The translations under genes and the position numbers were made by a program. Under the pieces are notes generated by a model that was not told the DNA's origin, did not search any database, and saw only the letters and a list, made by a program, of their open reading frames with translations. DNA of 64,000 bases from an uncultured Methanosarcinales archaeon (GTDB taxonomy: Archaea > Halobacteriota > Methanosarcinia > Methanotrichales > Methanotrichaceae): NCBI GenBank assembly GCA_903871465.1, contig CAIQHB010000004.1, positions 1 to 64,000 on the forward strand, in the 5' to 3' direction. Below, piece after piece: positions 6,288 through 27,543 of this stretch (position 1 is the first letter of the stretch; each line of letters opens with the position of its first letter).

Positions 6288-6974
6288 ATGTCTAAAGCTT
6301 TGGCCATTTGTGACCGCGTTTATGCTGTGGGTGGATCGGGCCTCTCTGCGCCCGAAGATGCCTTCGTCTATCTTGTGGATGCAGAAAGCGAGCTTGTGAT
6401 GATCGACGCCGGAGTCGGCTACGGCATAGGCAGAATCGAGGACAACATCCGGTCACTGGGATTTGAGCCGTCCCAAATTTGGCATATAATTGCCACGCAT
6501 TGCCATATCGATCACATCGGAGGCCTGTCCATCTGGAAAGAGCGATATGGGTGCAAAGTAATCGCTAATGAACTTGATCGGGCGGGAATTGAGGGCGAGA
6601 ACAACGACCTCACAGCGGCCGGCATGTACGGCGTGGACTATAAGCCTGTCAAGGTGGACACAATTCTCAAGGGCGAACGGGAAAAGATGCTTCTCGGCGA
6701 CCTGAAGTTCAACTTTCTCCATACGCCCGGCCATACTCCAGGGAGCATTTCTGTTTATATCGATACCAAGGACGGCCGGGTCCTCTTCGGCCAGGATATT
6801 CACGGCCCGTTCTCGCCCGCCTGGGGCTCGGACCTGTTGGCGTGGGGAACATCCATGCATAAGCTGATCGATCTCAAGGCGGATGTACTCTGTGAGGGGC
6901 ACGCCGGGGTTTACAGGGGCGAGGAGATCGGGAAATACATCGAATCCTGTCTGGAGAGATTCAGCTCTGCATAG
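6288..6974 (+). CDS. MBL-fold metallo-hydrolase
   Basis: HxHxDH motif THCHIDHIGG; FLHTPGHTPGSISVY; FGQDIHGPF. Confidence 0.9.
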   Translation: MSKALAICDRVYAVGGSGLSAPEDAFVYLVDAESELVMIDAGVGYGIGRIEDNIRSLGFEPSQIWHIIATHCHIDHIGGLSIWKERYGCKVIANELDRAGIEGENNDLTAAGMYGVDYKPVKVDTILKGEREKMLLGDLKFNFLHTPGHTPGSISVYIDTKDGRVLFGQDIHGPFSPAWGSDLLAWGTSMHKLIDLKADVLCEGHAGVYRGEEIGKYIESCLERFSSA

Positions 6975-6976
6975 TT

Positions 6977-7969
6977 TCAGGCTTCTAGTTTTATGATCTC
7001 ACCTTCCGAGACTGAGATCTTCCTCTCCAGAAAATGCCCTGCTGTCCAGATGTTGGTCTTGGCATGCAAGGAGATCTCCCGCGTGGTGTAGCTCCCACCC
7101 GCCAATGCGATATAAGGAATAAGCTGATCTGCCAAATGCATGTCCACAGATGCCCCGGATTTCAGCTCAGATATAAGGTCATCTGCCGCCATTTTCCCCA
7201 CTTTCTCCGCTGGCTTTCCCCTTTCTCCCAGATGGCTTGCACCCTTATAGCCTGACCAGAGGGTTATGCCGCTGCCCATGGAAGGCAAGCGCAGAACCTC
7301 CTGGGCGATATCAGACTCATAGCCCTGCTCCTGCAGCGTCGTTGATGCGGCTATGGCCTGCCTTCCGGCCACGTGCTCAGGGAGGTTTGAGCAGTGAGAC
7401 ATTCCAATCACAATCTCCTTTGTGGAACCGATGAAGTGGGCAGCGTTCAGCTTCGCCGGCTCAACCCGTAGGAGCACGTTTCCCTGCCCCTTAGGGTAAT
7501 ATCCTCTCTGCCGCACCTCAAGGGAGGCTCTGGCACCAAAGCAACCCAGAGCCGGCAAGAAGACACTCTTGAAATAATCCACAGTGGGAGCCCACTGCAC
7601 GTCCGTGCCGCCATGAACCTCCAGCGATGCGGGAGTGTCCGTCTTGAGCAGTGCCGGCAATAGGCATTGCATGAGAAGAGTAACGCTCCCCGCAGTCCCA
7701 ATCTTTACTTTGTGGCTTCCGCCGCGAATCTCTCCTGGTACAAAGATGATCTCGGAGGAACCGGGCGCAATGCCTGAGGTCCTGGCACCACATAGATCTG
7801 CCAGGGCTATTATTGCCCATGCATGTTGTGCAGCCAGGCCCGGTTTAGGCCGGCCTTGCCGGATCCTTGCTATGCGAACGGGCTTTCCCGTAACCGCGGA
7901 AAGCGCCACTGCCGTACGGACTATTTGGCCTCCGCCCTCTCCAAAAGAACCATCAATTTCAATCATCAA
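6977..7969 (-). CDS. rtcA: RNA 3'-terminal phosphate cyclase
   Basis: IDGSFGEGGGQIVRTAVALSAVTGKPVRI, RGYYPKGQG. Confidence 0.93.
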   Translation of the reverse strand: MMIEIDGSFGEGGGQIVRTAVALSAVTGKPVRIARIRQGRPKPGLAAQHAWAIIALADLCGARTSGIAPGSSEIIFVPGEIRGGSHKVKIGTAGSVTLLMQCLLPALLKTDTPASLEVHGGTDVQWAPTVDYFKSVFLPALGCFGARASLEVRQRGYYPKGQGNVLLRVEPAKLNAAHFIGSTKEIVIGMSHCSNLPEHVAGRQAIAASTTLQEQGYESDIAQEVLRLPSMGSGITLWSGYKGASHLGERGKPAEKVGKMAADDLISELKSGASVDMHLADQLIPYIALAGGSYTTREISLHAKTNIWTAGHFLERKISVSEGEIIKLEA

Positions 7970-8038
7970 ACCGCTTCTGCATACTATCTAGCAGTTGGCT
8001 AACTTATGCTTGCCGGTCTCGCATGTCCCGATGCCTAC

Positions 8039-8872
8039 CTATCCCCGGATCGGCTTGATGCCCCTGACCTTTATGCTGGAGATTGCGCCCTCTAACTTTT
8101 TGATCTCCTCGGCAGATCCTTTCAGGCTCAACAGAATCGCCTGGCCAGTTGGGTCATTGGTCATGCAGTCCAGTGGGAAAACGGATTCATCCATCACTGT
8201 AACATCCAGAAATCCAGCCGATCTTATGGCATCCAGATATCCGGTCTTCGTCGAGGCACCTGCAATACAACCTACATAGGCAACAATCGATTCCAACACA
8301 AAATCCGGAAGCTTCTTCTGCAGGACTATATCTGAGACCATCAGACGGCCCCCAGGTTTGAGGACCCTGAAAGCCTCTTTGAAGGCCTTTCCTTTATTTG
8401 GCACCAGATTGATAACGCAATTGGAAATGATTATATCGATGGTGTTGTCCTCAACCGGCAAGGATTCGATCTCACCCAATCTGAATTCCACATTCTTATA
8501 TTCTCCTTTGAGGGCATTGTCTTTTGCCCGTGCTATCATCTCAGATGTCATATCTACGCCGATGACCGATCCACTCGGGCCGACAATGTTGGATGCCAAA
8601 AAGCAATCGAAGCCCGCACCCGATCCCAGGTCCAGGACCGTCTCCCCTTCACTCAATGAGGCGAGTGCAATTGGGTTGCCGCAACCAAGTCCCAGGTTCG
8701 AGCCCGTTGGCACAGCTTGCACTTCCGCTTCGGTGTAGCCGATCTTCCTGGCGATAGCCGCGGGTTTTGCTGTCGTACAACAGCTGGACGAACAGCAGGG
8801 GCTGGCTTGTTCTGCAACACGACCGTAATTTTCTCTTACAGCTTTTTTTAGATTTTCATCTTTTTCTGTCAT
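8039..8872 (-). CDS. arsM: Arsenite methyltransferase
   Basis: GLGCGNPIALASLSEGETVLDLGSGAGFDCFLAS, ISNCVINLVPNK; Cys-rich N-terminus. Confidence 0.9.
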   Translation of the reverse strand: MTEKDENLKKAVRENYGRVAEQASPCCSSSCCTTAKPAAIARKIGYTEAEVQAVPTGSNLGLGCGNPIALASLSEGETVLDLGSGAGFDCFLASNIVGPSGSVIGVDMTSEMIARAKDNALKGEYKNVEFRLGEIESLPVEDNTIDIIISNCVINLVPNKGKAFKEAFRVLKPGGRLMVSDIVLQKKLPDFVLESIVAYVGCIAGASTKTGYLDAIRSAGFLDVTVMDESVFPLDCMTNDPTGQAILLSLKGSAEEIKKLEGAISSIKVRGIKPIRG

Positions 8873-8944
8873 ATCTTCACCTTTAATTAGGATTCAAACT
8901 TAACATAGTTTATTAAATACATACTAAACATATCGAATTTTGAT

Positions 8945-9229
8945 TTATTGCCTGAAGACCTCATTCATGATGGGGCCAAGCCTGGACTTCACCATGCTCT
9001 CAAGCTCTTCAACCTTGATAAGAGAGAGGCAGCAGATCTTGCCGTTTTTCTCCAGGCTCAGTACAGCCAGCTTATCTCCCGCCCGTATCATTGCCCTTTC
9101 TCGAATCTCTTTGGGAAGCACCATCTGCCCCCTCTCGTCTATGGTTACTATCGATTCCACTCTGCAACAGCCAATTTTGCCAGGTGTTGAGCAGCATTCA
9201 AACTCGTCTTCAGCAGTCATTTGTTGCAC
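8945..9229 (-). CDS. AbrB/MazE-type DNA-binding protein with N-terminal Cys pairs (resembles HgcAB-associated proteins)
   Basis: ESIVTIDERGQMVLPKEIRERAMIRAGDKLAVL AbrB swapped-hairpin motif preceded by ECCSTPGKIGCC; upstream of and co-directional with arsM. Confidence 0.75.
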   Translation of the reverse strand: MQQMTAEDEFECCSTPGKIGCCRVESIVTIDERGQMVLPKEIRERAMIRAGDKLAVLSLEKNGKICCLSLIKVEELESMVKSRLGPIMNEVFRQ

Positions 9230-9600
9230 CTTGTGCAGCGAATCTATTTTCCTATAATTTAAATTTTTCGGAAAAATCTAAAATATATGAATTAGCAGAA
9301 CAAATGGTATTGAAGGGCAAAATTGTTGCCTCGCGAGTTCTGGCCCTCGTCCTCGACCATCGATGCTATTTAAAATAAGACATTTGACGTATATTTTTCG
9401 GATTATTCGTTCTTATTGCAGATTCGATCCCAAGATTAGATCGCCATTTTGGATACACATTCTTGAATAATCCTTGATGAAAATTATCTACATAAATATA
9501 GACAACCGACGAAAATACCGTTGATAAATCCTGTAAACAGGATAAACTTTATCAATGAGTTTTTGTTATACCTTATTACAGATAAGTACTTAAAGTAAGG

Positions 9601-10632
9601 ATGATATACATGGAAAAAAATATTTTGGGTTTAGCGTTCAGCATATTCCTGATCGCCATAATAAATCCCGCGTTCGGTCTATCTATCAGCGTGAGCGGAG
9701 GAGATGGTGGCCAGGTAACATCGAATTCAATGGACTATAGTCTCGATCCGACTTCATCCATGACCAGCCATACGGTGATATCAGGAGGACAATCTCTAAC
9801 CACCATGCAGGCCGCCGGATCTGGCGCGATATCTGCAACTTCTGGCGTAGTAAACGCAGTTGTAGCAGGCAGTGATCTGAAAACGAACATGGAGATGAGC
9901 GGCGATCACATCACGGGCGGTGCGATACTCTCCGGCGCGCCTTTCGGAATCGATGCTCAACCTGGAATAGGATTTGATGGAGAGGCACTCACATTAGCGC
10001 CAGATGGGACGATCAAGTCTCTTGGAATAGTACAGACAGGGCCCGCAATTACTGCAACTGGAGGAAATGCTGCCGCCTACATACTTATGGGTCGAAAATG
10101 GACTCTGAAAGATCCTCAGATTAAAATGTCTCTAAAGGACGACGCCTTGTTGGCTGCCACTGGCATGTCCAAAACAAGCGTTCTGGTGGCCGTAACCGCC
10201 GCTACAAACACATGGGACGACGCCACAAATCAGAATCTGTTCTCCGATTCCGGTGCTTTAACTACAAATACGGCTAACTGGAAATATGATGGCGTAAACA
10301 ATATGGCCTTTACTCCTTACGTCACGGGTTGTTCTGCGCTGGCGGCAACGGGCGTTTGGTACAAGACACAAGGCATCCCAGTCGGCCAGATGTATCCGAT
10401 CCTTGAGTCCGATATGACATTCAACTCAAATCTAAAGTGGACAACTACGGGCGAAGCCGGAAAACTGGATTTCCAGAGTGTGGTATTGCACGAACTTGGA
10501 CATACCATTGGACTGGGCGACCTATATGGCCAACCCATTAATGATGGAAAACAGGTGATGGGTTACTATACTGGCGTCAGGCGATCCCTTGGAAATGGTG
10601 ACGCCACCGGAGTTTGGAAGCTGTACGGCTAA
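9601..10632 (+). CDS. Secreted matrixin/metzincin-like zinc metalloprotease
   Basis: Signal peptide; C-terminal HELGHTIGLGDLYG zinc-binding motif. Confidence 0.7.
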   Translation: MIYMEKNILGLAFSIFLIAIINPAFGLSISVSGGDGGQVTSNSMDYSLDPTSSMTSHTVISGGQSLTTMQAAGSGAISATSGVVNAVVAGSDLKTNMEMSGDHITGGAILSGAPFGIDAQPGIGFDGEALTLAPDGTIKSLGIVQTGPAITATGGNAAAYILMGRKWTLKDPQIKMSLKDDALLAATGMSKTSVLVAVTAATNTWDDATNQNLFSDSGALTTNTANWKYDGVNNMAFTPYVTGCSALAATGVWYKTQGIPVGQMYPILESDMTFNSNLKWTTTGEAGKLDFQSVVLHELGHTIGLGDLYGQPINDGKQVMGYYTGVRRSLGNGDATGVWKLYG

Positions 10633-10839
10633 ATCTGTATCCCTCCAAAAGCCGTACAATTCTTTTTTTTTTAAAAATTTCTAAGATCTTATGCGCATCG
10701 CAAGGCCCTTTGATAGTCCACGGAAAAATGGCGCAGTCCCTCATTTTCCGTGTTTCTTTCCGCAGTAGTCCGGATAGCGGCAACAGTTCCAGAGTTTAAA
10801 AGAGACCATTAGCTCAAAAAATATTTTTGGTGTTTCGAA

Positions 10840-19898: not shown

Positions 19899-20594
19899 AT
19901 GAAAGATGTTTCGGCCAATGCAAACGCCAAAAAAGCAGCAGGCGAGGACGCCGCGGATCTAGTCAAGAGCGGCATGGTGGTGGGTCTGGGCACCGGATCC
20001 ACAGTGGCCTGGACGATCAAGCGGCTGGGGGAGAGGGTCAAAGAGGATGGACTGGATTTCTATGGCGTTCCCACCTCTTTTCAGGCAGAGGATCTGGCCA
20101 TTGCCTCGGGAATAAGATTGACTACGCTGAACCAGCACCCTCAACTGGATTTGGCCATTGATGGAGCCGACCAGGTGGATGCCAACCTCTTCGTCATCAA
20201 AGGCGGCGGAGCTGCGCACACGCGCGAGAAGGTGGTCTCCTGTTCAGCAAAGCGGTTTGTAATTGTTGCCGACGAGTCCAAATTTGTGGAGAAGCTGAGC
20301 TGGCCGGTGCCTGTGGAGGTCCTGCCTTTTGCTGCAAAACTGGTGGAGCGGCGGCTTATAGATCTGGGCGGGAGGCCTGCGCTGCGTTTGGGCAAGATGA
20401 AGGACGGGCCGGTGATCACGGACAACGGGAACTTCGTGATGGACACGGACTTTGGGGTGATTGTTGATCCAAAGGGCCTGGCGGCGAAGATAAGCCCGAT
20501 TCCGGGAGTGGTGGAGCACGGGATATTCGACAACCTGGATGAGCTGTATCTGGCGAGGGCAAGCGGGGTGGAGATAATCAAGAGGCGAGGATGA
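19899..20594 (+). CDS. rpiA: Ribose-5-phosphate isomerase A
   Basis: [34 protein letters not shown]. Confidence 0.95.
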
Positions 20595-20641
20595 CGGAAC
20601 GTTATCCTGATTTCTCTTTTTCAGCTTTATTAATAAGCAAA

Positions 20642-21079
20642 TTATTTATATTTTAATTCGGCCTCTCTGAAAAACTCCAATAATCGGATCCATCTTACAT
20701 TAAGGCTCTTGCATACATTCGGTATCTTTGGCTTTACTGGGCTATTGTTGGGCCTTTCTGATGTAACAACCGTCCAAGCTCTGCACTTTGCTAATGCGAT
20801 TAGGAACGGATCAGCCTCCGGAATCGTTTTATTCTGATCTACAAGGCCAGGAAATTTTTCCAGGATACGTGAGACTTCTTGACTTTGATCAACATCAAGG
20901 GGAATGAACATTTTCTTGTTGGACTTTCCCCATTTTGCTAATCCATCATCCTTCACACAAATTTCGCGAAAGACTTCATCGGGTGCGATGAGCAATCCCT
21001 GATCAACAAGGGATTCAAGGTCCTTCCACAAGCCTGGAAAAATATCAGGAGGATAATGATTTGTGTGCATATCAATCAA
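20642..21079 (-). CDS. DUF4411-like/PIN-domain toxin-like protein; start uncertain
   Basis: Upstream frame reads YCIDTSALIDMHTNHYPPDIFPGLW; EADPFLIALAKCRAWTVVTSER; partner of the adjacent XRE/ImmA gene. Confidence 0.7.
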   Translation of the reverse strand: MIDMHTNHYPPDIFPGLWKDLESLVDQGLLIAPDEVFREICVKDDGLAKWGKSNKKMFIPLDVDQSQEVSRILEKFPGLVDQNKTIPEADPFLIALAKCRAWTVVTSERPNNSPVKPKIPNVCKSLNVRWIRLLEFFREAELKYK

Positions 21080-21129
21080 TGCGGACGTATCGATGCAGTA
21101 GCCTTCTTATAAGCGAAGTTGGATCAAAT

Positions 21130-22341
21130 CTAGGCCTCAAGGAGCCTTTCTATTCGAGGAATATGCTTAACGCGAATTCCCAGATAATCGGCTACATCGC
21201 TGGTGGTTATCTTGTCATTTCTATATGAATCGAGGACAAGTGAGGTTAATGGCGTGCCGTTTCGCTGTAGACATTCTTTGGGAATATCTCTTTTGATGCC
21301 TTTTCCTTTGACAGAATCCGGTTTTTTTTCTTTTTTTATCCACTCATTGTGCTTAATGGAATAGAATTCTCGGGAGGCCAATCCAGCTATGAGCAGCCTT
21401 CTTAAAATAACCTCTTTGCTCACCTTAAAATCATTGGAGATTGAGCCAAGAGTTCTCTCCGGCCATTTGTAGGAAGGTGTCTTTCCTACAACTAAGCGAT
21501 GGCAAAGCAAACCTTCCTTCGGAATTAGAATTGCACCGGCAAAAAAGTTGCAGAAAGCCTCAATGGACTTGTCTTTCTTAGTGGATTCCTCTCCGCCCAA
21601 TTTGTTCGGATCGCATATTCCGCCTTCACTTAAAAGGATATGTCCCAGCTCATGGAATAATGAAAAGATCCTGGCTTTCAAAGCGTCCTTTGTATTGATT
21701 ACTATTACCGGCAGGCCTCCATCGGTAAATGAAAACGCCCTTGTTTCTTCCAGGGGCATTGACATCTGAAATACAAGAATGCCTAGGCCTTCTACGGATT
21801 TTTTCCACCTATCCATGGCGCCAGTATCTTTCTCCCAGGATAATTGCTCTGCCAGAGAAATGCCTAATGATTCCCTCACGTTGCAGGCCAACGCTTCCGG
21901 ATCATCGGATAGCTTCGCATGCCCAATGCGAGCATGAAAATCGCCTTCACCGTCTTCTTTTAGCTCTGAGGCTATGGACTGAAGCCTCCTTGCCTGGCGC
22001 ATGGCAAGCCTGGTTTTGGGAGATAGCGGTCTCTCATTCTCATCGGGAAGGGTACGAAAATCGTGAGGGAGAGACAGCTCTTCTGGGGGACTTGGCAGAA
22101 AGAATGCGGCGAGAGGGCGCTTATAAAACCTGGCCAAGGCCTTTACCTGGTGCAGAAGGGGCTGCTTTTGGCCTGCTTCCCACTGCAAGACCAGCTCTTC
22201 GCTTTCGCATAGGATTGCTGCAGCTTCTTTGACTGTCCTGCCCATGCTCTCTCGGGCCCAGATTAGTACGGCAGGTTTGACGGGGATGCTGATGCTGCGA
22301 TTTTTCCCTTCTCGGTCCGTTGTTCCTGGCTTTTCCGGCAT
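21130..22341 (-). CDS. XRE-family HTH + ImmA/IrrE metallopeptidase-like protein
   Basis: HTH-like N-terminus (ARESMGRTVKEAAAILCESEELVLQWEAGQKQPLLHQVKALARFYKRPLAAFFLP) and zinc motif FHELGHILL. Confidence 0.88.
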   Translation of the reverse strand: MPEKPGTTDREGKNRSISIPVKPAVLIWARESMGRTVKEAAAILCESEELVLQWEAGQKQPLLHQVKALARFYKRPLAAFFLPSPPEELSLPHDFRTLPDENERPLSPKTRLAMRQARRLQSIASELKEDGEGDFHARIGHAKLSDDPEALACNVRESLGISLAEQLSWEKDTGAMDRWKKSVEGLGILVFQMSMPLEETRAFSFTDGGLPVIVINTKDALKARIFSLFHELGHILLSEGGICDPNKLGGEESTKKDKSIEAFCNFFAGAILIPKEGLLCHRLVVGKTPSYKWPERTLGSISNDFKVSKEVILRRLLIAGLASREFYSIKHNEWIKKEKKPDSVKGKGIKRDIPKECLQRNGTPLTSLVLDSYRNDKITTSDVADYLGIRVKHIPRIERLLEA

Positions 22342-22549
22342 ATTTGATCGAACGTATTACTTTTATCATACAACAATAGAATACCAGAGTTATATATTGG
22401 TATGGGTTAGAATTTAAATAAATTTGTATTAATAATAATAGGGACTTAGATGTCTTCCTGTCTCTCTGCAGGATTTATGGAGAAACTTTCGTTTAACACT
22501 TTGGAGTTTGGGATAAGGTTATAAACAGCAGCTACTTATAAGCGGGTGA

Positions 22550-23221
22550 GTGCCCATGGATGAGCAAGTAAAGCCTCTAATTTTACAAGAGCAGCAATTG
22601 GATTTATTTAATGCCTTGCTCAGCAAAAATAAGTATTTGGCTCGAATGTATTATGGAGCCATCAAAGTGCTCAATGACATGGATAACTTAGATCGGTTTG
22701 CCTTAGCCGCACACGATCTTCGTGAATTAATGGAAAAACTTCCTAATTATATAGATGTCGAAACAAAGGCACATAACGAAACGCTTGGCGATAAAGTTCA
22801 ATTGCTGAAAAAACAGTGGCATAAGACCTGTAGCAAGACCACTTGCGTTATTGATGGAACATGGAATGGAGAGATTGATAAATCACTGGCATTTCAGCTT
22901 CAGGAGTTTGAATTATTCTTCAAGTGGCACGATGAAAACCTCCCGAAAAGAAATGAAGAAATCACAACTGCTTTAAGGAAGCTGGATATATCCGGATGCA
23001 AATTGCCTATTTCACTTGAAGAACAAAACGTTAAGACATGGAAACAATTGCGCAAATACTTCTTAGGAATTGCACATCATGGGAAACATCCGAATGAAGA
23101 CGATTTTGATTCAAAGCTTGATATCTTTGAGGGCTTCCTTCTCGATCGTTTATACCCCAGGACTTTCACGGATTTAGATGAGATTGATCAAGTAATTCAA
23201 GAAGGTTATAATGATGCCTAA
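22550..23221 (+). CDS. Uncharacterised helical protein, first gene of a two-gene module
   Basis: 223 aa ORF, no familiar family; contains WKQLRKYFLGIAHHGKHPNEDDF; overlaps next ORF by 11 bp. Confidence 0.75.
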   Translation: MPMDEQVKPLILQEQQLDLFNALLSKNKYLARMYYGAIKVLNDMDNLDRFALAAHDLRELMEKLPNYIDVETKAHNETLGDKVQLLKKQWHKTCSKTTCVIDGTWNGEIDKSLAFQLQEFELFFKWHDENLPKRNEEITTALRKLDISGCKLPISLEEQNVKTWKQLRKYFLGIAHHGKHPNEDDFDSKLDIFEGFLLDRLYPRTFTDLDEIDQVIQEGYNDA

Positions 23222-26114
23222 GCCAGAAGTCATAGAAAGGGCATTGGCCTTAATTAGAAAAAGAGGTTCAAATTGTGAATACTTCTTCGATAAGCTCGAT
23301 TCTGCGGACTGGATAAAACCATTACAGGAACGTGGTATGTTCCAGCATCCTCCGCCTCAGAAAAGAGATGGAGAATTTATAAGCTTTCCATTTTGGCCGG
23401 AATCACGTTACTTGGCTCGCATGGCTTCCACGTCGCCAAAACAGGTTCTTGATATCATCTTAAAAATGCCTCAAACAGATAATGTTAGGGTACATGTAGA
23501 TTTTATAGATGCAGCCTGCAATATGTCTTCAGAACTAGCAGCACGATGTGCATTGTCGGAAGCAAATTGGATTGAGTCCCAGCAATATCTCTATTTTAAC
23601 TATCCTGAAAAGATCGGATCGCTCATAATATATCTAGCAGAAAATAATCAGATTGCTAATGCTTTAATTTTGGCTCGATCTCTTCTAAAGATAATGCCTG
23701 ATCAGAAGTCAGAGAATGGTTTCGGGAAAGTGGGAAAGTATAAACTTCCACCAGAGCCAAAGGTTCGGTTTGATATATGGGAATACGAGCAAGTATTAGC
23801 AGCGATTCTCCCGGTACTAGTTAAAGCATCCTGTTTCGAAGCTTTCATATTGCTATCTGACTTATTGGAAGCATTTATTCGTCTGTCAAGAGAATCTGAG
23901 AATAACAAAAACTATCTGGATTATTCTTCTATTTGGCGTCCCGCTATAGAAGATCACCCCCAAAATCTATATAATACGTTAGAAGATATGCTAGTCTCAG
24001 CTATAAGAGATACCGCAGAACAAATTGGATCAATAGATACAGATCATCTCACTCAATTAGTCCAAATACTAGAATCCAAGCGATGGAAGGTATTCTCCCG
24101 GATTGCGTTACATCTCTTAAGGATATACGTGGATCGAGTGCCTATTCTGGCAGCAAATCATATTACTAATCGTTCCCTTTTCTGCGATTATAGCTTGTGG
24201 CATGAATATGCATTATTGCTAAAGGAATGCTTCAAGCTGATGCAATCAAGTCAGCAAGAGATAATTCTGAGTTGGATTAATATAGGTCCTGACCTTGGGC
24301 ACTCAATTGAATTAGATGGGAAAAAAGAGGATAATAAATCACTTAGCTTAGAAGATGAGCAATATAAAAAGATCTGGCAGCGAGATCATTTGGCCTTAAT
24401 TAAAGATGATATTCCTGTCGCTTGGATGAAATTATATGAGCGTTTAGTCAAAGATTTAGGCGAATCCTCTCATCCCGAATTTACCAGTTATCATGAGAGT
24501 TGGATTGGCCCAACCAGTCCTAAAAGTTCCGAAGAATTAGGGAGCATGACTTTTGATGAAGTCATAAAATTTTTAAATTCCTGGTCGCCCCCACAAGGAT
24601 TTCGTGCCCCGACTCCAGAAGGTCTTGGTAGAGTGCTTTCTGTTACAATAGCAGATGATCCTCAAGGTTATGCTCTTGAAGCTGCGAGATTCCAAGGACT
24701 AGATCCTACTTATGTACGAGCTCTGATTTCCGGTCTAAGGGAAGGCATAAAAAAGGGATATTGCTTTGAATGGCAGCCTATTCTTACTCTATGCCAATTG
24801 GTGGTATCTCAACCAATAGAAATCCCAGAACGAGTCATTAATAACCGTGATGCAGATCTGGATTGGGAATGGACTAGAAAGGATATTGCTCGTCTATTGA
24901 ATTGCGGTTTTGAAGAACGCAAAGGAGAGATTCCGTTTGTCCTCCGCCCTATTTGTTGGTCTCTCCTTTCATCCCTTACAAAAGATCCCGATCCCACTCC
25001 AGAGGATGAAGCAATTTATGGAGGGTCCAATATGAGCCCAGCTGCACTTTCGATAAATACCACTAGAGGCGAAGCTATGCATGCTTTAATTCAATATGCA
25101 TTTTGGATTCGCCAATACAATAAAGGAACATATGGCGAGGATTGCATCAATTCATCAGGGTTTAATGATATGCCAGAGGTACGAGATGTCCTGGAATACC
25201 ATTTGAATCCCCGCAATGATCCGTCACTAGCTGTGCGTTCAGTTTATGGTCAGTGTTTTCCTTGGCTTGTCGTACTGGATCAAGCATGGTCATCTGAAAA
25301 TGCAGCAAGAATTTTCCCATCTCAAACGGATAATGTATCAAAGGACCTTTACTGTGCTGCTTGGGAAACCTACATCACTTTCTGTGATATCTACGACAAT
25401 GTATTTGAGATTTTAAAAGAAGAGTATTCTAATGCGGTTGAACATCTTGCAGGTTCAATCGATGATCGCAGCAGATATTCAATCGAATCTGATAAGCGAT
25501 TGGCAAATCATATTATCAACCTCTATTGGCGTGGCAAGCTAAATCTTGATGATCCTCAAAGCTTGATTTCCAGATTCTACGTAAACGCACCGGATTCTCT
25601 TCGAAAATATGCTATCGAATACATAGGCCGTTCGCTTTATAATGAAAAAGACGAAATAGATGCTGATATCCTAAAAAGATTGCAGGTCCTTTGGCTAAAG
25701 CGAATCGATAATTTGCAGATAACGAATAAACGAGAGACTCATCTTCTTGAACCAATTGCCTTTGGTTGGTGGTTTGTATCTGGAAAATTCAATGATATCT
25801 GGGCTATAGAGCAACTCGTGATTGCCATTGAACTTGCAGGCAAAATAGAACCTGAACATAGTGTCCTAGAGCATTTATCTAAAATTGCTGCTGAAATGCC
25901 ATTGCCTGTTGTAGAATGTCTAGATAAAATCTTAGTAAAAGATGAAAACGAACCAAGATCTATAACTTTATCACGATCAGACGAGACTCGAAATATACTC
26001 GAAATAGCAATCAACAGCAATGATACTGGAGCTAAAAAGGTTGCGATAGATCTAATTAACTCCATAGGTGCTAGAGGCTATTTAGGCTATCGTGACTTAA
26101 TTCCAAAAGAATAG
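23211..26114 (+). CDS. Large uncharacterised alpha-solenoid-like protein (967 aa)
   Basis: Long ORF overlapping the upstream gene; helical composition; YFFDKLDSADWIKPLQERGMFQHPP...FPFWPESRYLARMA and TTRGEAMHALIQYAFW resemble regions of large defence-associated proteins. Confidence 0.8.
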   Translation: MMPKPEVIERALALIRKRGSNCEYFFDKLDSADWIKPLQERGMFQHPPPQKRDGEFISFPFWPESRYLARMASTSPKQVLDIILKMPQTDNVRVHVDFIDAACNMSSELAARCALSEANWIESQQYLYFNYPEKIGSLIIYLAENNQIANALILARSLLKIMPDQKSENGFGKVGKYKLPPEPKVRFDIWEYEQVLAAILPVLVKASCFEAFILLSDLLEAFIRLSRESENNKNYLDYSSIWRPAIEDHPQNLYNTLEDMLVSAIRDTAEQIGSIDTDHLTQLVQILESKRWKVFSRIALHLLRIYVDRVPILAANHITNRSLFCDYSLWHEYALLLKECFKLMQSSQQEIILSWINIGPDLGHSIELDGKKEDNKSLSLEDEQYKKIWQRDHLALIKDDIPVAWMKLYERLVKDLGESSHPEFTSYHESWIGPTSPKSSEELGSMTFDEVIKFLNSWSPPQGFRAPTPEGLGRVLSVTIADDPQGYALEAARFQGLDPTYVRALISGLREGIKKGYCFEWQPILTLCQLVVSQPIEIPERVINNRDADLDWEWTRKDIARLLNCGFEERKGEIPFVLRPICWSLLSSLTKDPDPTPEDEAIYGGSNMSPAALSINTTRGEAMHALIQYAFWIRQYNKGTYGEDCINSSGFNDMPEVRDVLEYHLNPRNDPSLAVRSVYGQCFPWLVVLDQAWSSENAARIFPSQTDNVSKDLYCAAWETYITFCDIYDNVFEILKEEYSNAVEHLAGSIDDRSRYSIESDKRLANHIINLYWRGKLNLDDPQSLISRFYVNAPDSLRKYAIEYIGRSLYNEKDEIDADILKRLQVLWLKRIDNLQITNKRETHLLEPIAFGWWFVSGKFNDIWAIEQLVIAIELAGKIEPEHSVLEHLSKIAAEMPLPVVECLDKILVKDENEPRSITLSRSDETRNILEIAINSNDTGAKKVAIDLINSIGARGYLGYRDLIPKE

Positions 26115-26661
26115 GTATAAATTTAGCTTAGCAGACACCGTCCTTAATCGGACACAAAGAGCAGATGTTACCACCTTGTGCGCACATTTCGCATAGGCGA
26201 CAAGGGTTGAGATGCATGCGTATGGGCTGAGGGGGTTTGTAATTTGTGTCCCTGCTGCCACAAAGCCATTTTTTATCAATATCTTGTTTTATCTTTCTGT
26301 TCCAGGATATGCGAGGCTGAAAACGTCATTCTAGATCAAGCTTCTGGGAACGGGACGTGATAGAGAAATAGGGCTCCAATATCAGCACTCAAACATCGAT
26401 AATGCCGACCATACTCACTGCATTTCCATCTGCCTGCTTCGCCCCCATCAATATCAATGCACGGTTTACAAGTGAGCATGCGCATGCGTATCCGCACGCG
26501 CGCGGGGACGCAAGAGCGCGCCTGGCAGGACAGTTTTATCGCCAACGTCGAGGATCGCTGCCAGCGATTTCTGCCGCTTATTTGGAGGGAGCCATAAACA
26601 AGAATGGCTCAAAACCTAATCTTCAGGATTTTCTCCAAAGACCGACTAAAATTAAATAATA

Positions 26662-26850
26662 GTGGAACATAACCGTATCTCAGAGTTGGTGTTAGATATG
26701 GCAAAACCTGTCAGGCTGGGCTTGGTTCTCGAAGGTGATGCAGCAAGGGAGTTCTGGAAGAACGAGGAGACCACTGCATTTACGCCAAGACAGTTGGCCA
26801 TGTTTAAAGAAGCTAAACGGATTTACAGAGCCAATCGCAGCAGATTTTAG
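26662..26850 (+). CDS. Small antitoxin-like protein
   Basis: KPVRLGLVLEGDAAREFWKNEETTAFTPRQLAMFKEAKRIYRANRSRF; short charged helical ORF beside TA-like genes. Confidence 0.4.
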   Translation: MEHNRISELVLDMAKPVRLGLVLEGDAAREFWKNEETTAFTPRQLAMFKEAKRIYRANRSRF

Positions 26851-26997
26851 GCTCATTCATCTTCGCCTCTCCTCTCCCGGATCTCCTCTTCGATCTCTTC
26901 CGGGCTCAGGAGCGGTATGCCGGCAGCAATTATCTGGCTCATCGCTGTTTTCTGTGAGTTCATGCGATTGGCGCAGGAATCCAACAATTTTCCGTAG

Positions 26998-27103
26998 TCC
27001 TCTGTGCGCTCTGCGCCTCTGCGGTTAAATGGTCGTTAGACACCGGTTATGACTTATGGTTGCGGAATATAACCGCAGAGTCGCGGAGTTCGCAGAGTTA
27101 CGC
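26998..27103. repeat. Imperfect inverted repeat of CGCAGAG-type repeat
   Basis: cctctgtgcgctctgcgcctctgcggtta facing taaccgcagagtcgcggagttcgcagagtt. Confidence 0.75.
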
Positions 27104-27246
27104 ATAAAAAGAAACAAAGCTTTACTTACCCACACCATATAGCGAAGAGCCAATTATCTTTTGCCTCAATGCCAAGAGACGGCGCCCGCGAGAGGTTTTC
27201 GGGGAAAACGATTTGGTTTCATTTCCGAAGCACCTCCTTTCGTCCT

Positions 27247-27543
27247 TCATAGAGGAGTTGCCTCTGCTATCACTTGATCCCTGATGTACCAGTGCAGGGC
27301 TCTGTCGCTGACTACATCCACCTTCCTTTCAAGAAGGTCTTCGAGATCCTGCATTAGGGTCACATGGTCCATTAAGCTCGTCCCTGATTCCATCTCTACA
27401 AGAATGTCAACGTCGCTCTCGGGCTTCGCTTCTCCTCTAGCCACTGAGCCGAAGACACGGACATTATGGGCACCATGACGAGCGGCTATGGCCAGAATTT
27501 CCTGGCGCTTGGATTTCAGCAGTTCCTCAATTTTCATGGACAC
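27247..27543 (-). CDS. MNT-type nucleotidyltransferase (HEPN-MNT antitoxin-like)
   Basis: VRVFGSVARGEAKPESDVDILVEME (GSxxRGxxxxxSDxD). Confidence 0.9.
   Translation of the reverse strand: MSMKIEELLKSKRQEILAIAARHGAHNVRVFGSVARGEAKPESDVDILVEMESGTSLMDHVTLMQDLEDLLERKVDVVSDRALHWYIRDQVIAEATPL

Follow-up and report, generated by a model that had tools for sequence, protein, structure and literature searches.

DSR1 is described as a single protein in which an SIR2 domain and a sensor are joined. Both DSR1 and DSR2 are anti-phage systems (PMC10952713, PMC10981675), and in DSR2 it is the C-terminal part that serves as the phage sensor, recognizing the phage tail tube protein (PMC10981675). We analyzed a pair of genes in a 64,000-nucleotide stretch of DNA from an uncultured Methanosarcinales archaeon (the window) that shares with DSR1 (PDLC04166; NCBIfam NF041818) the ~900-residue C-terminal solenoid, the homology extending along its whole length; DSR1, however, is a single polypeptide with an N-terminal SIR2 domain, whereas the window has two genes and a small helical partner at the SIR2 position. 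At a probability of roughly 60%, we read this pair as a two-gene DSR1-type antiviral system in which the sensor and a non-SIR2 partner are made as separate, co-translated proteins. DSR2 provides a working analogy in its plan, with an N-terminal SIR2 effector and a C-terminal sensor, but it has no detectable sequence relation to the solenoid of the window, and no DSR2 chain was matched when the solenoid profile was searched against the PDB.

The larger gene (23211..26114, + strand, ATG start) encodes a 967-aa protein corresponding to a DSR1-type C-terminal sensor without SIR2. The PADLOC Dsr1 profile matches this protein with an E value of 2e-54, residues 8-958 aligning to profile positions 309-1215 of 1227, and a profile built from SIR2-linked solenoids only matches it at 1.3e-57 (best of 200 shuffles, 0.23); the NCBI Dsr1 equivalog model finds it at 1e-6, far under the cut-off of that model. 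Family and defence-profile searches detected neither an SIR2 domain nor an NTPase, including the central NTPase of STAND/Avs proteins, in either protein of the pair. As the Dsr1 match begins only at position 309 and no SIR2 or NTPase domain accompanies it, the 967-aa protein is therefore the sensor half of DSR1 without an effector. The original prediction for this locus had described a long alpha-solenoid, resembling the C-terminal sensor parts of large defence proteins and without a visible NTPase domain; the whole-length homology and the domain searches bear out the latter two points, and the predicted secondary structure, which is all-helical and compatible with a solenoid, agrees with the first, albeit from a low-confidence model (pLDDT 44, two-sequence alignment). 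Most members of the solenoid family share a start signature, YFF..L....W..PL...G.F......(F)P.W....YL. Sequence searches against solved structures gave no real match for this family or for the family of the small module.

The smaller gene (22550..23221, + strand, GTG start) encodes 223 aa according to the ORF list, and as annotated it overlaps the solenoid gene by 11 bp, just as had been predicted. Judging from sequence conservation, the start shared with the related locus L001, from a Methanothrix MAG, is probably the ATG at 22556, which would give a protein of 221 aa. The conserved start of the solenoid gene is probably the ATG at 23214, because the 5' end of this gene, ATGCCTAAGCCAGAA, is the same in the other two split loci; the overlap would then be 8 bp. 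This 8-bp overlap, ATGCCTAA (23214-23221), is identical in all three of the known split loci (the window, L001, and L004 were compared). A ribosome-binding-like GAAGGT (23201-23206, + strand) is located inside the small gene just upstream of the overlap, and a ribosome-binding-like stretch, GGGTGA, is found at the corresponding place inside the small gene of a second genome, G069. Taken together, the ribosome-binding-like stretch and the conserved overlap at the junction (23201..23221) suggest that the two genes are translationally coupled. A candidate TATA-like box, TTATAAA (22519..22525, + strand), identified from its letters and partly conserved in L001, lies upstream of the pair. The dN/dS ratio between the window and L001 is ~0.27 for each gene; both ORFs are therefore selected coding genes maintained under purifying selection.

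The small module was found in 5 of the 240 genomes of the class that were surveyed, as a split gene in three and as a fusion in two, and in all five it is located beside the solenoid or fused to it; the co-occurrence of the two parts, on which the idea of a solenoid with a separate small partner depends, is thus upheld. Strong solenoid matches were obtained in eight genomes of the class (five with the small module, two with SIR2, and one cut by the contig end), and three more genomes gave weak, partial matches only. Few genomes carry the split pair: it is present in two genomes besides the window and in 2 of 26 genomes examined from the genus, and the G069 proteins are 44-47% identical to those of the window. 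In G066 and G067, methanogens of the same class, the solenoid and a related module of ~190 residues form a single chain of ~1080 residues. The Dsr1 match in the G066 fusion begins at model position 295, and the small module therefore fills the slot that SIR2 has in DSR1. Further fusions of module and solenoid were identified in another archaeal genome (G406, where the frame is cut by the contig end) and on a Streptomyces plasmid, bacteria having been sampled through plasmids only. Scans of viral contigs and a tblastn search of phage records returned no relatives.

A profile made from the fused modules matches the small proteins of all three split loci (E values of 1.2e-14 for the window, 2.7e-14, and 8e-7; best shuffle, 0.23). 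The small protein is all-helical in its predicted structure, a low-confidence model (pLDDT 51, two-sequence alignment) with which a PDB fold search found nothing significant. Pfam family PF18165 (pP_pnuc_1) matches the window protein with an E value of 0.0022 and a score of 18.1, under the curated cut-off of 26.3, and the fused homologue of G406 scores 32.2, above that cut-off; a search for this family over 149 genomes gave no matches, but its controls were silent as well, which makes it uninformative. The match of the bAgaN profile to the small protein is confined to positions 8-45 of 267, in the N-terminal part. The helical module of PF18165/bAgaN thus appears, from these profile comparisons, to be the sole family link of the small protein. 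Although bAgaN has this N-terminal helical segment in common with the small protein, it differs in possessing a PD-(D/E)XK nuclease domain and an Argonaute neighbour, both of which are absent here. The DNase residues of bAgaN (D298, E309, and K311) sit in that separate C-terminal domain (PMC10620215); there is no sign of such a domain in the small protein, nor any match to a nuclease family, and family and defence-profile searches found no recognized catalytic domain in it. An alignment of seven small modules, some of them closely related, shows four invariant residues, H55, R58, E59, and H176, although it is weak in its middle part; such residues would be in keeping with an active or binding site. 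In a 427-aa protein of genome G033 (L068, 1480-2763, - strand), the N-terminal part is repetitive and the C-terminal module is weakly similar to the small protein.

The original prediction had also suggested that a stretch of the small protein, RKYFLGIAHHGKH, might be a divergent HEPN-like motif. The HEPN motif is defined as Rx4-6H (PMC3710099), and the spacing in the split proteins is R-x7-H (R168-x7-H176). R168 is not conserved in the fused modules, and no HEPN family matches the small protein. Some HEPN families are without the arginine of the motif, and the small protein may for that reason still be a divergent, non-canonical HEPN; the motif as proposed was not upheld. Of the larger proposal, a stripped-down recognition solenoid acting with a separate small partner, the solenoid and the partnership are well supported, given the homology to the DSR1 sensor, the location of the partner at the SIR2 position, and their linkage or fusion, but the HEPN reading is not supported.

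The pair is cargo of a 6.6 kb island (20590..27240), delimited by synteny with L035 and L037 and by a drop in GC content, which contains a DUF4411 gene, an XRE/ImmA gene, and the small gene with its solenoid partner. The pair has a GC content of ~40%, compared with 50-56% on both flanks. In two sister genomes (L035 and L037), a DUF86-like HEPN gene lies between rpiA and an MNT gene; the window retains rpiA and the MNT-like gene (27247-27543, - strand), but the HEPN partner of the latter is missing and the island is at its site. The XRE/ImmA metallopeptidase gene and then the DUF4411 gene (20642-22341, - strand) resemble a toxin-antitoxin unit and are divergent from the pair; the AT-rich island, the divergent genes, and the nearby MNT gene were all as foreseen. 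Since the G069 pair has no XRE/ImmA-DUF4411 genes adjoining it, these are probably separate cargo of the island, and we set them aside as components of the module; the L001 contig begins too near the pair to show whether they adjoin it there. A GNAT-like gene that lies downstream of the pair in L001 (4337-4903, + strand) is absent from the window, where the similar flank contains a 62-aa ORF (26662-26850, + strand); this is possibly a toxin-antitoxin unit from which the toxin has been lost.

A defence neighbourhood of the homologues was only partly observed. In G069, the pair is inside a tailed provirus. A minor head gene lies on one side of it and other head genes (decoration and major head) on the other, and it adjoins a Schlafen-group-3 helicase that has a NERD domain; genes for the connector, the major tail protein, and the tape measure then follow. 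The Streptomyces plasmid fusion adjoins TniB/TnsA-like transposition genes. No defence island is evident around the G066 and G067 fusions, the neighbours of which are ordinary metabolic genes, and the context is therefore not uniformly defensive.

The same solenoid family is found with other partners. It is fused to SIR2 in G046, G102, and G243. On plasmid pOCN014 of Vibrio coralliilyticus (L018), effector and sensor are likewise encoded by two genes, with an 8-bp overlap, but the upstream gene encodes SIR2 (PF13289) and not the small helical module; this locus is a precedent for an effector and a sensor as separate genes. Haloarchaeal plasmids and genomes encode N-terminal STAND/AAA NTPases with a DSR1-like solenoid of this family at the C terminus, the NTPase part being absent from the window pair. 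Because the solenoid is paired with SIR2 (fused or separate), with a STAND NTPase, or with the small module, it can be regarded as an interchangeable part, and these architectures suggest that a DSR1-type sensor may be combined with different effectors. Two further loci were noted in the course of these searches. In L054 (G337:C4:46000-62000), DSR1-type SIR2-like and solenoid parts are located in two overlapping frames (6496-9857, - strand), the gene being either frameshifted or split in yet another form. L058 (G071:C1:92000-110000) encodes a 1266-aa protein (7006-10806, + strand) with an SIR2-like start and only weak solenoid similarity, near primase-like genes that resemble those of the G069 provirus; it is perhaps another provirus-borne DSR system.

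The small protein could instead be a non-catalytic adaptor or oligomerization module, holding the solenoid together or coupling it to an unlinked effector, a reading that we consider unlikely but worth keeping in view. Such a role may belong to the N-terminal domain of bAgaN, an Argonaute-associated nuclease, and it is this part of the PF18165/bAgaN profile, apart from the domain with the DNase residues, that gives the small protein its only family match; a similar module is, moreover, C-terminal in the unrelated G033 protein. However, the split loci share no other effector gene, the module occupies the effector slot, and its four residues are invariant, as would be expected of an active or binding site. 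From the position of the module, in the place of the effector, we infer that the small protein is somewhat likelier to be an effector than an adaptor.

It is doubtful that the pair is a toxin-antitoxin-like unit, one protein being toxic and the other neutralizing it, with no sensing of viruses: antitoxins are not usually fused in the way that the module is to the solenoid at four loci, and the homology of the solenoid is to a sensor and not to a toxin, although a small upstream gene does overlap a large one here and the island has other genes of toxin-antitoxin type. It is very improbable that the solenoid is merely what remains of a DSR1 after loss of the SIR2 domain, with the small gene unrelated to it. 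SIR2-linked forms do exist in related genomes, and the DSR1-type locus of G337 is spread over two overlapping frames, but the two frames of the pair are intact and the overlap between them is conserved, and the pair recurs in G069 with fused forms in other lineages; we rejected this explanation on the basis of the dN/dS ratio of 0.27 and this recurrence.

Homology, gene context, and carriage by a provirus together indicate that the pair is probably antiviral. As a two-gene DSR1-type system, it would begin with the binding of the 967-aa solenoid to a viral protein made during infection; recognition of viral proteins is proposed because DSR-type systems do so, the C-terminal part of DSR2 being a phage sensor (PMC10981675). 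Binding may then switch the small helical partner to another state through signalling between the two proteins, and the partner, in the position that SIR2 has in DSR1, could act as the effector that stops the infection or the cell. A more ambitious reading is offered tentatively, as the evidence leaves it on the weaker side of even odds: the small protein would be the founding separate member of a new effector class with an HxxRE...H site, having replaced SIR2, and the solenoid would be a general plug-in virus sensor, one that drives, in cis or in trans, NADases, STAND NTPases, or this effector.

In the literature searched, of which our coverage was partial, we found no account of a DSR1 sensor paired with a partner other than SIR2. 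Detection tools that require SIR2 would miss such systems, as exemplified by the score of the 967-aa protein with the NCBI Dsr1 model. If our reading is correct, an undescribed effector or adaptor is in hand, and the sensor would be open to study without a toxic NADase attached. The DSR1 sensor would then be a portable recognition part, recombined in evolution with different effectors and sometimes carried as a separate gene, and the range of DSR-type immunity would come to include, in a new form, methanogenic archaea and their proviruses.
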